The translations under genes were made by a program, and so were the position numbers. Positions 49,153 to 57,352 of a stretch of 64,000 bases of DNA are shown in pieces. This DNA comes from Fibrobacterota bacterium. GTDB lineage: Bacteria; Fibrobacterota; Chitinivibrionia; Chitinivibrionales; FEN-1185. Within the stretch, counting starts at the first letter, position 1; the number at the start of each line of letters is the position of its first letter. The DNA is taken from assembly GCA_003165595.1 (NCBI GenBank), contig PLWQ01000007.1, positions 18,108 to 82,107 on the forward strand, read 5' to 3'. The notes under the pieces were generated by a model, which saw nothing but the letters and a program-made list of their open reading frames with translations, had not been told where the DNA came from and ran no database searches.

Positions 49153-49920
49153 ATGGAATTCCTGATAAAGCTGCTGCACGCTTTTAGTCCGCAGTCGGAT
49201 GCATTTCTGTTTATGTGGGCCATTCTGGTCACCGGCGTGTTCAGCGTTTCCATAATCATCGAACGGTTCATCTATTTGCAAAGCAAGTCGGGATTCCGTT
49301 CCCAAATGTTTATTCGCGACATCTTGCAGAATATCCAGAAGGACGATGTGGCCAGCGGGATCAAAATGTGCGAAAAGGGCAAGCGTATGGCGCTTGCCGG
49401 CGTCGTCAAAGCCGGCCTGGATGAGGCAAACACAGGCGCCGAACGCATCCGCAATGCAATTGACGAGGCGATGCTCAAGATTATTCCGATGCTGGAGAAA
49501 CGCACCGGGTATCTTGCGGTTATCGGCAACGTCGCGACACTCCTTGGACTGCTCGGCACCGTGTACGGTCTCATCATGTCGTTTGCCGCCGTGGGCCGGC
49601 CTGGTATCGACGCGGCGCAAAAGTCGGAATTGCTGGCATCCGGTATCGCCACCGCCATGAATTCCACGTTTTCCGGACTGTCGGTCGCAATTTGCTCCAT
49701 CATGGTGTTCGCGTTCATGAAGGCGAAAACGCAGAAAATCATCGACGAACTCGACGAATACTCGGTGCGGGTGCTCAATGCGCTCATCGAGAAATCGTTC
49801 AAGACGCACAAATATCACATCAGCGCGTCGCAGCTTAAGGAAGGCGTGGGCCTGCACGTGACGCACAACAACATCAAGATCTTTACCGACAACAAGCTTA
49901 TCAAGGAAATAAACATCTGA
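49153..49920 (+). CDS. exbB: ExbB/TolQ/MotA-family proton-channel protein
   Basis: An inner-membrane proton-channel subunit that powers TonB- or Tol-type partners. Three TMs: about residues 15-37, and then the paired TMs with NVATLLGLLGTVYGLIMSFAAVG and ATAMNSTFSGLSVAICSIMVFAF, the family signature. Length (255 aa) is normal. GGAGGAG 5 nt upstream of ATG is a strong ribosome site. It begins the ExbB/ExbD cluster; the gap to the next gene (49921-50083) holds short degenerate repeats. Confidence 0.92.
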   Translation: MEFLIKLLHAFSPQSDAFLFMWAILVTGVFSVSIIIERFIYLQSKSGFRSQMFIRDILQNIQKDDVASGIKMCEKGKRMALAGVVKAGLDEANTGAERIRNAIDEAMLKIIPMLEKRTGYLAVIGNVATLLGLLGTVYGLIMSFAAVGRPGIDAAQKSELLASGIATAMNSTFSGLSVAICSIMVFAFMKAKTQKIIDELDEYSVRVLNALIEKSFKTHKYHISASQLKEGVGLHVTHNNIKIFTDNKLIKEINI

Positions 49921-50055
49921 TCGGGATTCGCCGGATTTACGGGATTTCCGGGAGAGAAAGACAATCGGGATTCACGAGGTTTCCAGGAGAAGACGATTAG
50001 GATTGGCGGGATTCCCAGGATGAAGACTTGCCTCTTGTAGCTGTCAACCGTCAAC
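49921..50055. repeat. Degenerate short repeats
   Basis: Two to three imperfect copies of a GGGATTC(A/G)CG(A/G)GGTTT(C)CCAGG-like unit lie at about 49921-50030, followed by CTGTCAACCGTCAACTTTT near 50040. The latter motif recurs as CTGTCAACTGTCAACTTT at about 62107. Probably remnants of interspersed repeats. Confidence 0.45.
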
Positions 50056-50083
50056 TTTTCATTTTTAACTTGTAAATTGATAT

Positions 50084-51391
50084 ATGGTAATATTCGGCGA
50101 ACTCCTCAAATGTTTCCTACCGTCGCATGACGCTTTCGTATTCATGTGGGTGCTTGCCACACTCGGACTTTCGGCGGTGCTTCTCACCGCGGAGCGATGG
50201 TTTTCCATAAACAGGCGCACCGACTACGATGCCGCAAGTTTTTTCGAGCGTATAAAGCGGCTGGTCGACGAAAAGAACTTCGACGAAGCTTACCGGATCT
50301 GCGCATCGGGCGGCCGCAGGGCACTGCCCCGCATTCTTGGCGCGGGCATACGGGAAGTCCAGATTGAACCCCATCTTGTGGAAGGTGCCATGGGCGAAGA
50401 ATCGACCCACATGGCTTCACAGATGGAAAAACGGCTTCCCATTCTTGTGATGTTCAGCAATGTCTCCACGCTGCTGGGCCTGCTCGGCACGGTCTTTGGC
50501 CTCATCATGTCGTTTGCCGCGGTTGGAAGACCTGGTGTCGCCGCGGTGGAGAAATCGGCTCTGCTTGCCGCGGGGATTTCCGCGGCAATGAATTCCACGC
50601 TTGTGGGACTCTCCATAAGCGTGCCCTGCATTCTTGCCTACGCGATGCTTCGCGCCCGCGTCGATGCTGCGCTCGTGGAAGTCGACCGCTACGCAGTGGC
50701 CATTCTCAATCTGCTCAACCCGCCCACTGCGGGCCAGAAAAAACTCAATTCTCTTGTGCGTCGTTCCGGCGACGACGAAGTTGCCGACACCGACGTCACG
50801 CCCATGCTCAACCTCATGGTCATGCTCATTCCCTTCCTGCTCACCTCGTCCGAATTCGTCAAGATGGGCGCCATAGAGCTCAAGCTGCCCGAATCGACGC
50901 AGGGCGGCGGGGGCGGCGGCGGGGGTGAGAGCCAGCAGGAAACCAAGCTCGAGCTCGGGGTAGTCATCACATCCAAGGGATTCAACGTATTCGACTACTT
51001 CAACCAGGCCGAAAAGGCGGCTCAGGCCAACCAGACCCTGGGCGAAAAACTGCCCGACATACCGCTCAAAAACGGCGAGTACGATTATGAGACCCTGAAT
51101 GCAAAACTCGCAGAAGTCAAGAGAAAAGCCCTGTACGAAATCGTAAAAGCCTACTACCCAACGGTGACTCCGGACGCCTCGCTGTACCAGCTTTCCAAGG
51201 CCTATCTTTCCAAGAACCTGAGCACCAGTTCCGTGTTTGCCGATCACGAGGCGGTCAAGCTCGTGGGTGAAGACAAGATCAAATACCAGACGGTGGTTGC
51301 GGTGATGGACGCTGCGCGGGGGACGCGCACGCCCGACGGCAATGTCACCTTATTCCCGAATGTGTCGATTGCGGGAGGTATTATCCAGTAA
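50084..51391 (+). CDS. ExbB-ExbD fusion protein, 435 aa
   Basis: The N-terminal 225 residues are an ExbB/TolQ/MotA unit (LLGLLGTVFGLIMSFAAVG). The rest is an ExbD-like unit: TM with DTDVTPMLNLMVMLIPFLL, then IELKLPES, a run of eight Gly and a periplasmic tail. In ExbD the equivalent TM position is Asp (FIDVMLVLL), which is essential for proton use; here it is Asn (MLNL). The fusion may therefore be structural rather than a proton site. No ribosome site is seen before the ATG at 50084. It overlaps the next gene as TAATG. Confidence 0.85.
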   Translation: MVIFGELLKCFLPSHDAFVFMWVLATLGLSAVLLTAERWFSINRRTDYDAASFFERIKRLVDEKNFDEAYRICASGGRRALPRILGAGIREVQIEPHLVEGAMGEESTHMASQMEKRLPILVMFSNVSTLLGLLGTVFGLIMSFAAVGRPGVAAVEKSALLAAGISAAMNSTLVGLSISVPCILAYAMLRARVDAALVEVDRYAVAILNLLNPPTAGQKKLNSLVRRSGDDEVADTDVTPMLNLMVMLIPFLLTSSEFVKMGAIELKLPESTQGGGGGGGGESQQETKLELGVVITSKGFNVFDYFNQAEKAAQANQTLGEKLPDIPLKNGEYDYETLNAKLAEVKRKALYEIVKAYYPTVTPDASLYQLSKAYLSKNLSTSSVFADHEAVKLVGEDKIKYQTVVAVMDAARGTRTPDGNVTLFPNVSIAGGIIQ

Positions 51392-51891
51392 TGGCGCAGC
51401 AATCCATTCGCAGAAGGCACCGGAAACGGGGCGACGGCACGGTCAAGCTCAACATCACTTCCATGATCGACATGTTTACGCTCATGGTGGTGTTCCTGCT
51501 CAAGAATTATTCGGCGCAGGGGCAGCTTGTGACGCCTGCGACCAATCTGCTGCTGCCCACGTCTTCGGTTGAGAAAAACGCGGGGGAGGCGCTGAGCGTC
51601 AAGGTGTCCGGCACGAACATCATGGTGGAAAATGACGTCGTCATCGACGAAAAGGGATTCCAGACTGCGCTCGCCCAGAAGGAGTTCCTTATCGAACCCC
51701 TGTATAATGTGCTCAAGAAACATTGTGACGAGGCGAAGAAATCCGCGGAGATGTTCAAGACCGAGTTCTCCGGAAAAGTCTCAATACAGGGCGATGTGGC
51801 GATTCCGTACAACATGCTTACCAGAATCATGTATACCTGCGGCCAGGCAGGTTACCCCGTTATGAACCTTGTAGTCTACAGGAAGGGATAA
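51391..51891 (+). CDS. exbD: ExbD/TolR-family protein
   Basis: Short cytoplasmic N-terminus, one TM with NITSMIDMFTLMVVFLLKNY (the Asp in SMIDM is at the essential ExbD/TolR position), and a periplasmic domain ending AIPYNMLTRIMYTCGQAGYPVMNLVV, as in the family. 166 aa. The start overlaps the fusion gene's TAA, and its own TAA overlaps the next start, both as TAATG. It probably supplies the functional proton site for the cluster. Confidence 0.92.
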   Translation: MAQQSIRRRHRKRGDGTVKLNITSMIDMFTLMVVFLLKNYSAQGQLVTPATNLLLPTSSVEKNAGEALSVKVSGTNIMVENDVVIDEKGFQTALAQKEFLIEPLYNVLKKHCDEAKKSAEMFKTEFSGKVSIQGDVAIPYNMLTRIMYTCGQAGYPVMNLVVYRKG

Positions 51892-52967
51892 TGGCGAACG
51901 CCGGGCAGTCGGGACTTTTCTATCTCCACAACGCGGGTGAGATCTCACTCAAGGTATTCCCGCAGGATCTGCGAAGGAGCCTGATTTCCAGGCTGGACCC
52001 GCGCTTTGCCATAATTTTCGGCTCGCTTTTCCTCGTGGCATTCATCTCCGTTTCCATTCTCTCGTCCGTCAAGATTTCCGATACGGTAAGCGAAAAAGAA
52101 ATCACAAAGATTCAGGAACGCTACGCTCAGCTTGTGCTCAACCAGCCCAAGCCCAAGCCTCCGGAAGTGAAAGCCGAAGACAAATCCAAGGCAAACGAAA
52201 CGGGCAAGGTCGCGGAAAAGGGAGCGGTCAAGGAAGAAGTGAAAGTGGACCGCGAAAAAGAGACGTTCGTACAACGCAAGGAACGGGCCGAAGCAACAAA
52301 GGAACAACGTCAGGCGGTTCGCCAGCGGGTCGCCGCGGCCGTGCAGACCGCCGGGATTTTCGCCGCGATTACGGCTTCGGGCAGCGGACCGGGCTCCGGA
52401 CCCTCGACGGGCGGGAGTGTTACCGATCTCCTCGGCGCCACGGGCGAAGGCGTCGGCGATTTGGGAAACATAAAGGTGTCCAAGGGGACGTTTGCCACCA
52501 GGAGCAATGTTGACGTAGGCGAACTCAAGGCGAGACGTGGTACGGTCACCCAGGGCGTCGATATCGCACGGGAGAGCGTGGGCAGAACGCGGTCGGAGCA
52601 TATTTCTTCCGGCGGCGGCGTGGCGATATCGTCCGCCGTTCCGGAAGTGACGGGCAACACCACCAATGCCGAAGCAAGGAGCCAGGCGTCGATCAAGAAA
52701 GTGATCGATCTGGAAAGCAACCGGCTCAAACGGGTGTACGAAACCTGGCTTAAACGCGACCCGACGCTCGCGGGCCAGCTCAAGATCAAGTTTACCATTA
52801 TGCCCGACGGGAGCGTCACCAACGTGACGGTTGTGAGTTCCAGTACCAAGAACACGGAATTCGACGAAACGCTCATGCGTTACATCAAACGATGGGCCTT
52901 CCCGGCAATGGACGGCGGCAGCCCGGTGGAGGTCGTCTACCCGTTCGTGTTCGAGGCTCAAACATAG
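51891..52967 (+). CDS. TonB-like protein with AgmX-type C-terminal domain, 358 aa
   Basis: One TM (about residues 42-62), a charged/Pro-Lys linker with KPKPPEVKAEDKSKA, a Gly/Ser-rich central region, and a C-terminal TonB/AgmX domain (about 275-358: LKIKFTIMPDGSVTNVTVVSSSTKNTEF, ending VVYPFVFE). It should be energised by the preceding ExbB/ExbD proteins. The AgmX/PglI type is known from gliding and envelope systems of Myxococcota and relatives. Translationally coupled to exbD. Confidence 0.85.
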   Translation: MANAGQSGLFYLHNAGEISLKVFPQDLRRSLISRLDPRFAIIFGSLFLVAFISVSILSSVKISDTVSEKEITKIQERYAQLVLNQPKPKPPEVKAEDKSKANETGKVAEKGAVKEEVKVDREKETFVQRKERAEATKEQRQAVRQRVAAAVQTAGIFAAITASGSGPGSGPSTGGSVTDLLGATGEGVGDLGNIKVSKGTFATRSNVDVGELKARRGTVTQGVDIARESVGRTRSEHISSGGGVAISSAVPEVTGNTTNAEARSQASIKKVIDLESNRLKRVYETWLKRDPTLAGQLKIKFTIMPDGSVTNVTVVSSSTKNTEFDETLMRYIKRWAFPAMDGGSPVEVVYPFVFEAQT

Positions 52968-53041
52968 AGATACGTCCGGCGGCTCTTTGCCGGAACGAGC
53001 AAGTGATACGAATTTGCTTTCAAGATGATTCTGAGCATGGG

Positions 53042-53112
53042 TGTCATCGCGAGCGCAGCGCGGCGATCTCATACGGTTGAGATTGCTTCGTCGCGGACTC
53101 CTCGCAATGACA
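53042..53112. repeat. REP-like palindrome
   Basis: TGTCATCGCGAG (53042-53053) pairs with CTCGCAATGACA (53101-53112), with inner arms GCGATCTC and GAGATTGC. It is a classic intergenic palindromic element in a 257 bp gap. A second hairpin, CGGCAGGA/TCCTGCCG (53168-53190), follows. Confidence 0.75.
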
Positions 53113-53224
53113 TACAATCAACTTGAACGCAACTTAGTATGAGTTCGATCCGATAGTTGCCGCGGGGCGGCAGGAGCTTTCTTCCTGCCGGTTGGATCAC
53201 CAGTAATTTACGCAGGAGAAACGT

Positions 53225-53536
53225 ATGAAGGACAGAGCCAGCGAACGAATTGAGTTCATTAATTTGAACGGATCCTCGGAGCCGACGCTGTTCGATTTGA
53301 GCAAGACGGGGGTGTGCGGTTTCAGCTCGAAGAAACTCGAGAAGGATAAATTTGCCTTTGTCAAGATCAACACGCTGCGGCTCAAGGCCCAGGTCGTATA
53401 CTGCCAGGAGCGTTCCGACGGGTTCCGCGTCGGCATGCACTTTTGCGAGGTACCGGCCGATTTGCAGGCCTCTTTGAACGACCTGGTGGACAAGTTCTCC
53501 CGCGGCGTTCCCATATCATGCTCCATTGAGGGATAG
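53225..53536 (+). CDS. PilZ-domain protein, 103 aa
   Basis: PilZ is a c-di-GMP receptor fold. RASER near the N-terminus fits the RxxxR motif, and FDLSKTGVCGFS fits (D/N)xSxxG, the two nucleotide-binding elements. The length is that of a stand-alone PilZ domain. Ribosome site GAGA 4 nt before the ATG. It lies between the TonB-like gene and a FliL-like gene and so could couple c-di-GMP to that machine; this is inference. Confidence 0.75.
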   Translation: MKDRASERIEFINLNGSSEPTLFDLSKTGVCGFSSKKLEKDKFAFVKINTLRLKAQVVYCQERSDGFRVGMHFCEVPADLQASLNDLVDKFSRGVPISCSIEG

Positions 53537-53559
53537 CTCGTTCCAAGAAAGTTGTACCG

Positions 53560-54237
53560 ATGTCCGATGGCACATGGCTTGGGCAGACGAAAAAGCGAAA
53601 TAATGCCCTGTGGATTATCCTGATTGTCGTCGCGGCGGTAGGGGCGGCCGCGATTTTTCTGCACAACAACAGCGACATTCTGTGGGGGAAAAAAGGCCTT
53701 GGGCAAGAGGCGATAGAAACCTCGCCGGCGGTCAGGAGTTCCACCGCATCTGCCGCGCCCGTGACCAGACCGGAAGGCGCACCGCGTGAAGCGCCGGCGG
53801 CGGCCGACACGGCCGCACCGAAAGCGCGGCCTGCGATCTTGGCAACGCCGGGCATTCCCGCCGCTTCCGACCGTGCTCCGCAGACTTCTACGGCCGCTTC
53901 TCCTGCGGCAGTCGCTGCCCGGCCTACCCGCGACATCGGAACCGCATCGATGGTCCTCGGTGACATCACGTGCAGGCTGGCCGACAGGAGCAAACCTGTC
54001 TTGCGGTTGTCGATAGAGATCTATTTTTCCGACGATCCGGGCTTTGCCCACGAGTTGCTTTTGAAAAGGGACAACCTGAAGGTGCTGGTGCGCAAGGTGC
54101 TGTCCACGAAATTCCTCGACGACCTGGTTGTGGAAAAGCTGCGGATTGAGCTGCGGAACGTTCTCAACGGGATTCTCGAAAAGGGACAAATTTCGGATAT
54201 AGAATTCAGGGATTTTCGAATAGACAAGGTGGAATGA
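53560..54237 (+). CDS. FliL-like membrane protein, 225 aa
   Basis: One TM (about residues 17-36), an Ala/Pro-rich linker (about 55-130), and a C-terminal domain (about 135-225) of FliL type: [16 protein letters not shown], then [28 protein letters not shown]. FliL sits around the flagellar stator. Next to ExbB/ExbD-type stators and PilZ this may be a stator accessory. It ends 4 bp before secA. The start lacks a strong ribosome site. Confidence 0.65.
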
Positions 54238-54241
54238 CATT

Positions 54242-57348
<3,107 letters not shown>

Positions 57349-57352
<4 letters not shown>

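Follow-up and report, generated by a model that had tools for sequence, protein, structure and literature searches.

What kind of machine can be built from two ExbB-type and two ExbD-type proteins when one of the two ExbDs lacks the residue expected to carry the proton? This question is raised by a cluster of six genes in the stretch of DNA analysed here (the window), that is, 64,000 nucleotides of a Fibrobacterota bacterium (assembly GCA_003165595.1, contig PLWQ01000007.1, positions 18,108 to 82,107 of the forward strand). An earlier reading of the letters alone (the sequence-only reading) had described six open reading frames (ORFs), namely exbB, an exbB-exbD fusion, exbD, an AgmX/TonB-like gene, a PilZ gene and a FliL-like gene, as a motor driven by the proton motive force (PMF) and tuned by cyclic di-GMP (c-di-GMP). 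The ORF list and the Pfam scan recovered all six on the + strand, with these domain types, at the coordinates given in this text, and ExbB1, the fusion, ExbD3 and the GltG-like gene form a PMF motor module; the observation is confirmed and its interpretation partly supported. It is rather probable that these four genes encode the inner-membrane motor of a core complex of the Agl/Glt type, in which the two ExbDs would form an obligate heterodimer, the motor subunits would stand in a 4:1:1 ratio, proteins with tetratricopeptide repeats (TPR) and an OmpL47-like protein would be the envelope partners, and a PilZ protein would provide the link to c-di-GMP. Gene content, conservation, co-occurrence, the division of Asn and Asp between the ExbDs and the link between the fusion and a second ExbB can be read directly from the DNA. 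The features that carry the argument are as follows:

49153-49920, + strand: ExbB1, a free ExbB/AglR-like protein of 255 aa with the conserved C-terminal tail HVTHNNIKIFTDNKLIKEI; Pfam MotA_ExbB, 87.7 bits
50084-51391, + strand: ExbB2-ExbD fusion of 435 aa in a single frame, its ExbD being termed Da; Pfam MotA_ExbB, 77.1 bits, and ExbD, 50.8 bits
50810-50812, + strand: codon AAC for Asn243 of the fusion, at the site of the ExbD proton Asp (alignment column N243)
51391-51891, + strand: ExbD3, a free ExbD of 166 aa termed Db, in a clade apart from Da; Pfam ExbD, 49.0 bits
51469-51471, + strand: codon GAC for Asp27 of ExbD3, the retained proton-carrying Asp, invariant in the ExbD3 alignment
51891-52967, + strand: GltG-like transducer of the TonB family (TonB4), 358 aa; Pfam TonB_C, 42.4 bits
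53225-53536, + strand: PilZ single-domain protein (PilZ5), 103 aa, with R4xxxR8 and D24xS26xxG29; Pfam PilZ, 31.1 bits

The Pfam matches of ExbB1, of both domains of the fusion, of ExbD3, of TonB_C and of PilZ are above the cut-off. In the fusion, the ExbB domain occupies about residues 1-213 (MotA_ExbB match, 82-199) and the ExbD domain about residues 228-435 (ExbD match, 231-413).

In ExbD, TolR and MotB, a single Asp in the membrane carries the proton. Alignment showed that the fused ExbD reads TPMLNLMVMLIPFL, with Asn243 where this Asp is expected, and that ExbD3 reads TSMIDMFTLMVVFL, with Asp27 in the proton position. The same division was found in relatives from many phyla: among 76 copies of ExbDa the residue is Asn in 70, Ser in 2, Gly in 2 and Asp in 2, and the ExbDb partner has Asp in 74 of 74 (both counts were made with a regular expression, and the rows that it missed were taken by eye). 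Moreover, a Pro follows seven residues on in all the non-Asp rows of ExbDa, and the Asp rows are without it. Da and Db form two separate clades (SH-aLRT 95 and 98), and the two further core complexes of the window genome (L215, C41:120-131 kb; L216, C7:0-9 kb) are divided in the same way, with Asn in Da and Asp in Db. As 74 of the 76 relatives are non-Asp, Asn243 is not an oddity of the window. Nor is Asn universal in such motors, for in both clusters of Polyangiaceae each of the two ExbDs carries Asp, and both types occur in Deltaproteobacteria/Bdellovibrionota, where several clusters have Asp in both ExbDs; the Polyangiaceae clusters and these several are without the Pro. No description of the Asn form was found in the literature searched, in which subscription journals were mostly not included.

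The second line of evidence comes from the ExbBs. ExbB1 and the fused ExbB2 form sister clades (SH-aLRT 98) that arose by duplication, with longer branches on the side of ExbB2, and the channel threonines are kept in both (GLLGT and AMNST in ExbB1). An extra free ExbB stands upstream in 24 of the 24 fusions with readable upstream DNA, a count whose members are not independent, the fusion being a single event in one clade; in the remaining 4 fusions the contig edge lies upstream, and a stub of ExbB1 is left there. Unfused Da of the same family is accompanied by exactly one ExbB in 73/73 cases. A sequencing artefact is ruled out as the source of the fusion, because every relative of the clade, in independently assembled genomes, has it fused and with a length of 425-439 aa. 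Two metagenome-assembled genomes labelled Proteobacteria (L105, L106) carry a fusion in which Ser takes the place of the Asp, and their TonB gene is followed by a different gene, of 715 aa; their fusions nest within the Fibrobacterota clade, so that either transfer or mislabelled bins are indicated.

Since a ring of five ExbBs around two ExbDs is impossible from the fusion alone, the fused design needs a free ExbB. If each ring holds one Da and one Db, the fusion and the extra ExbB would fix the make-up, most simply as 4 ExbB1 : 1 ExbB2-ExbD : 1 ExbD3. An obligate heterodimer is supported at the sequence level by the conserved loss of Asp from one ExbD paralogue, together with the fusion and the free ExbB that compensates for it, and the two ExbDs are best read as such a pair with one proton site. 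On this reading, the proton would pass through a ring of five ExbBs surrounding two ExbD helices and would be carried by Asp27 of ExbD3 only, and the fused ExbD, with Asn243 and then Pro, may act as a permanently neutral, fixed partner helix.

The explanation that survives best beside this one, though we hold it to be unlikely, is that a homodimer of ExbD3 is the proton motor, the ExbD with Asn standing outside the ring as a non-conducting spacer or regulator. It can be said in its favour that the same genome contains a locus (L079, C37:407-410 kb) in which one ExbB is accompanied by only one ExbD, of the Db-like kind, and by a TonB-like protein, that is to say, a Db-only variant of the motor. 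However, Da and Db are neighbours in nearly all loci, and the strong conservation of the transmembrane (TM) segment of Da (N..P) fits a role in the pore.

To which family of machines does the motor belong? The sequence-only reading had recognised no named system, but a related one exists: the Agl/Glt core complex, made up of the Group B genes gltC, gltD, gltE and gltG with aglR, aglQ and aglS (Luciano et al. 2011, PMC3169522), which has been reported from non-gliding bacteria including Fibrobacter (PMC3169522). With this complex, the system of the window genome shares motor proteins of the ExbB type and two of the ExbD type, a GltG transducer resembling TonB, and large TPR proteins. The transducer has a cytoplasmic N-terminus, one TM segment, a linker and an AgmX/PglI-TonB C-terminal domain; it scored 86 bits against the NCBIfam model of the AgmX/PglI C-terminus (NF033768, cut-off 40), and 111.7 bits over residues 21-356 against that of GltG (NF033760), where the equivalog cut-off of 650 was not reached. 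Unlike the Agl/Glt core complex, the window system has an Asp-less ExbD fused to a duplicated ExbB, a PilZ protein attached, a GltG without an FHA domain, TPR genes that are unlinked in the window genome, and an OmpL47-like protein in the TPR trio. The comparison with AglRQS of Myxococcus xanthus is similar: both have an ExbB and two ExbD paralogues in an envelope-spanning machine driven through GltG, whereas AglRQS has no fusion and a single AglR, and both AglQ and AglS are described with the conserved aspartate (PMC9389320), in place of which one ExbD of the window has Asn243. Without Asp in both ExbDs, the window motor stands outside AglRQS in the strict sense, yet it is related to the Agl/Glt motor and would work in a similar way.

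The putative envelope partners are encoded elsewhere. In the window genome, the genes of the core complex are split over C39, C21 and C3. Contig C21 carries a TPR / OmpL47-repeat / TPR trio of 709, 1021 and 1951 aa, in which the middle protein (1021 aa; L203:13382-16447, - strand), conserved in the trio, has OmpL47-type repeats, a PKD domain and an FGE-sulfatase domain, and the 1951-aa protein at C21:148559 is the TPR2 homologue. A small exported protein (FEEQRIEGKIRRPQLVLIKADQRP...), to which no Pfam or NCBIfam family could be matched, is encoded at C3:79809-80126 of the window genome and at L084:12278-12604 (- strand), and in most relatives its gene stands upstream of ExbB1. In Raymondbacteria and in FCB-type loci, the genes are gathered in one region. 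In Raymondbacteria, the OmpL47-like, TPR2 and small-protein genes lie directly before ExbB1, and in Calditrichota, KSB1, Latescibacterota and their like a TPR gene, a large TPR gene (~1,550 aa), the small exported protein, ExbB, ExbDa, ExbDb and the GltG-like gene follow one another. The arrangement resembles that of the Agl/Glt core complex of Luciano et al. (PMC3169522). Each part was used to search 60 related genomes, of which 19 contained the fusion. TPR2 and the fusion occurred together in 17 genomes (fusion only in 2, TPR2 only in 2, neither in 39; p 7e-11), and the small exported protein and the fusion in 18 (each alone in 1, neither in 40; p 4e-13), where the p-values, as with PilZ5 below, ignore shared ancestry. 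The presence of the motor is patchy within families, and several contrasts fall inside one family or genus (e.g., G022 versus G028), so that more than one event is involved. The GltG-like protein would hand force across the periplasm to the TPR / OmpL47-like / TPR envelope complex, and the outcome would be movement or transport at the cell surface.

Several points weigh against the assignment to an Agl/Glt-type heterodimeric motor, among them the shared ancestry behind the co-occurrence values and the fusion counts. Da could sit in a complex of its own or be structural, the proton work being done by an ExbD3 homodimer. In the GltG-like protein, no FHA domain was detected by the Pfam scan of its 358 aa. 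The TPR proteins resemble GltD/E in their repeats only. TPR1 and TPR2, which co-occur with the motor, match the GltE and GltC models weakly, under the cut-off and possibly in a way generic to TPR. Finally, PilZ is truly absent from the complete motor clusters of G026 and G028.

The Asn/Asp split extends across many phyla and, within one genome, to three paralogous systems, and it is tentatively proposed, as a serious possibility that may well fail, that there is a widespread subfamily of 5:2 motors with an obligately asymmetric ExbD heterodimer and a single proton site, in which 4:1:1 was fixed by fusion and duplication in the lineage of the window. In the rotary model, 36-degree steps are expected for two Asp (PMC9389320); a motor with one proton site would, on the same model, need five protons for each turn and move in 72-degree steps, or would limp. 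Such a natural one-proton-site motor would be useful for probing how 5:2 motors step. The split also bears on AglQ and AglS, for which it is not known, according to a 2022 review (PMC9389320), whether they join AglR as a hetero- or a homodimer, and the fusion bears on how such motors, here linked to a dedicated PilZ protein, are assembled.

Does the rest of the cluster belong to the motor? Two further features have to be considered:

53560-54237, + strand: FliL-like protein, 225 aa; Pfam FliL, 19.7 bits, under the cut-off; assigned by linkage to the secA neighbourhood rather than to the motor
54242-57352, + strand: secA, starting 4 bp past the FliL-like gene; context only, outside the motor

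secA-tmk, not mentioned in the sequence-only reading, directly adjoins the six genes. Within the taxonomic order, several families have the arrangement ExbB1, fusion, ExbD3, TonB-like, PilZ, FliL-like, secA, tmk; up to secA it is also found in Candidatus Raymondbacteria (L097/L107) and in another Fibrobacteres genome (L109). Since the gene order is kept over several families and as far as Raymondbacteria, the cluster is not due to chance. In one relative (L098, G019:C62), ExbB1 is cut at residue 181, PilZ is kept and the genes of the fusion, ExbD3 and TonB are gone, through either deletion or misassembly.

PilZ and the FliL-like gene, which had been taken together as partners of the motor, behave differently. 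PilZ5 goes with the motor: it is present in 13 of the 19 genomes with the fusion versus 1 of the 41 others (fusion only 6, PilZ5 only 1, neither 40; p 6e-8), and the fusion genomes without PilZ5 mostly have a contig end near that place. RxxxR and [D/N]xSxxG, the c-di-GMP motif, are kept in 15/15 aligned copies of PilZ5, and the window genome has 14 GGDEF domains, so that c-di-GMP input to the motor through PilZ5 is plausible; PilZ would probably couple motor activity to c-di-GMP. Both c-di-GMP control and a role of the cluster in motility or secretion are what we infer.

The FliL-like protein does have a counterpart in flagella. It consists of one N-terminal TM segment, a linker and a periplasmic FliL/SPFH domain, and its AlphaFold model (pLDDT ~90-97 in the domain) found in Foldseek the FliL of H. 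pylori (7sgn, TM-score 0.83, E 9e-7) and of C. jejuni as best matches, followed by stomatin SPFH domains. Unlike flagellar FliL, it stays under the Pfam cut-off (19.7 against 24.6 bits; 4/22 family members match at E<=0.1) and lies beside secA, outside the flagellar locus. A canonical fliL stands separately at C14:243213 near flhA, in the flagellar locus, which rules out that the FliL-like gene is a relocated copy of it. That both PilZ and the FliL-like protein are dedicated partners of a c-di-GMP-tuned motor, as first supposed, is quite improbable: the two genes are neighbours in the window, PilZ follows the motor in its occurrence and the FliL fold is supported, but the FliL-like gene precedes secA-tmk in ~12 genomes that lack the exb cluster, is missing from G001 and G030 despite motor and PilZ, and is independent of the fusion within the order (12/18 versus 14/22, p=1). 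On linkage, it is rejected as a motor partner. It occurs in 27 of the 39 genomes with flagellar genes versus 0 of the 21 without, and in G001, where motor and PilZ are kept, flhA, the canonical fliL and the FliL-like gene are all lost. To judge from fold and distribution, the FliL-like protein would be a second, diverged FliL, a neighbour of the motor tied to secA and to flagellated lineages. Flagella and the motor themselves are independent within the order. For the type IX secretion system, the co-occurrence check suggested with the sequence-only reading was uninformative, SprA (SprA_N) being present in 58/60 genomes. T2SSE-family ATPases, looked at with regard to a type IV pilus, are present in the window genome.

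Could the motor simply energise nutrient uptake, the TonB-like protein opening TonB-dependent receptors? The ExbB, ExbD and TonB_C domains and low-score matches to TolQ/ExbB models would agree with an ordinary TonB/ExbBD system, yet this is improbable, because TonB is matched better in two separate TtpC-type TonB systems of the same genome (L075, C41:211-215 kb; L076, C37:82-87 kb). In addition, the TonB protein of the window bears an AgmX/PglI domain and resembles GltG in its N-terminal region, and the motor is found together with the TPR trio and with the small exported protein. L075 and L076 are of the TtpC/ExbB-ExbD TonB2 type and resemble the window in that a free ExbB precedes an ExbB-ExbD fusion; however, their fused ExbD keeps the Asp (NLAPFVD) and belongs to a different clade, which indicates an independent fusion.

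A Tol-Pal-like motor for maintenance of the cell envelope is the least probable of all, for although TolQ is the best solved-structure match of the ExbB domain and the large TPR proteins have YbgF/CpoB-like repeats, the cluster shows no TolA, TolB or Pal (no search of the whole genome was made), the transducer is GltG-like, and the patchy presence within families is unlike that of housekeeping Tol-Pal.

As regards the contacts between the genes, the fusion and ExbD3 (at 51391) and ExbD3 and the TonB gene (at 51891) share two TAATG one-base overlaps, and 23 bp separate PilZ from the FliL-like gene and 4 bp the latter from secA; wider gaps of 163 bp and 257 bp lie between ExbB1 and the fusion and between TonB and PilZ, respectively. 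The TonB-PilZ gap contains, at window positions 53081-53112, a REP-like (repetitive extragenic palindrome-like) sequence, GATTGCTTCGTCGCGGACTCCTCGCAATGACA, which occurs as a single copy within the window.

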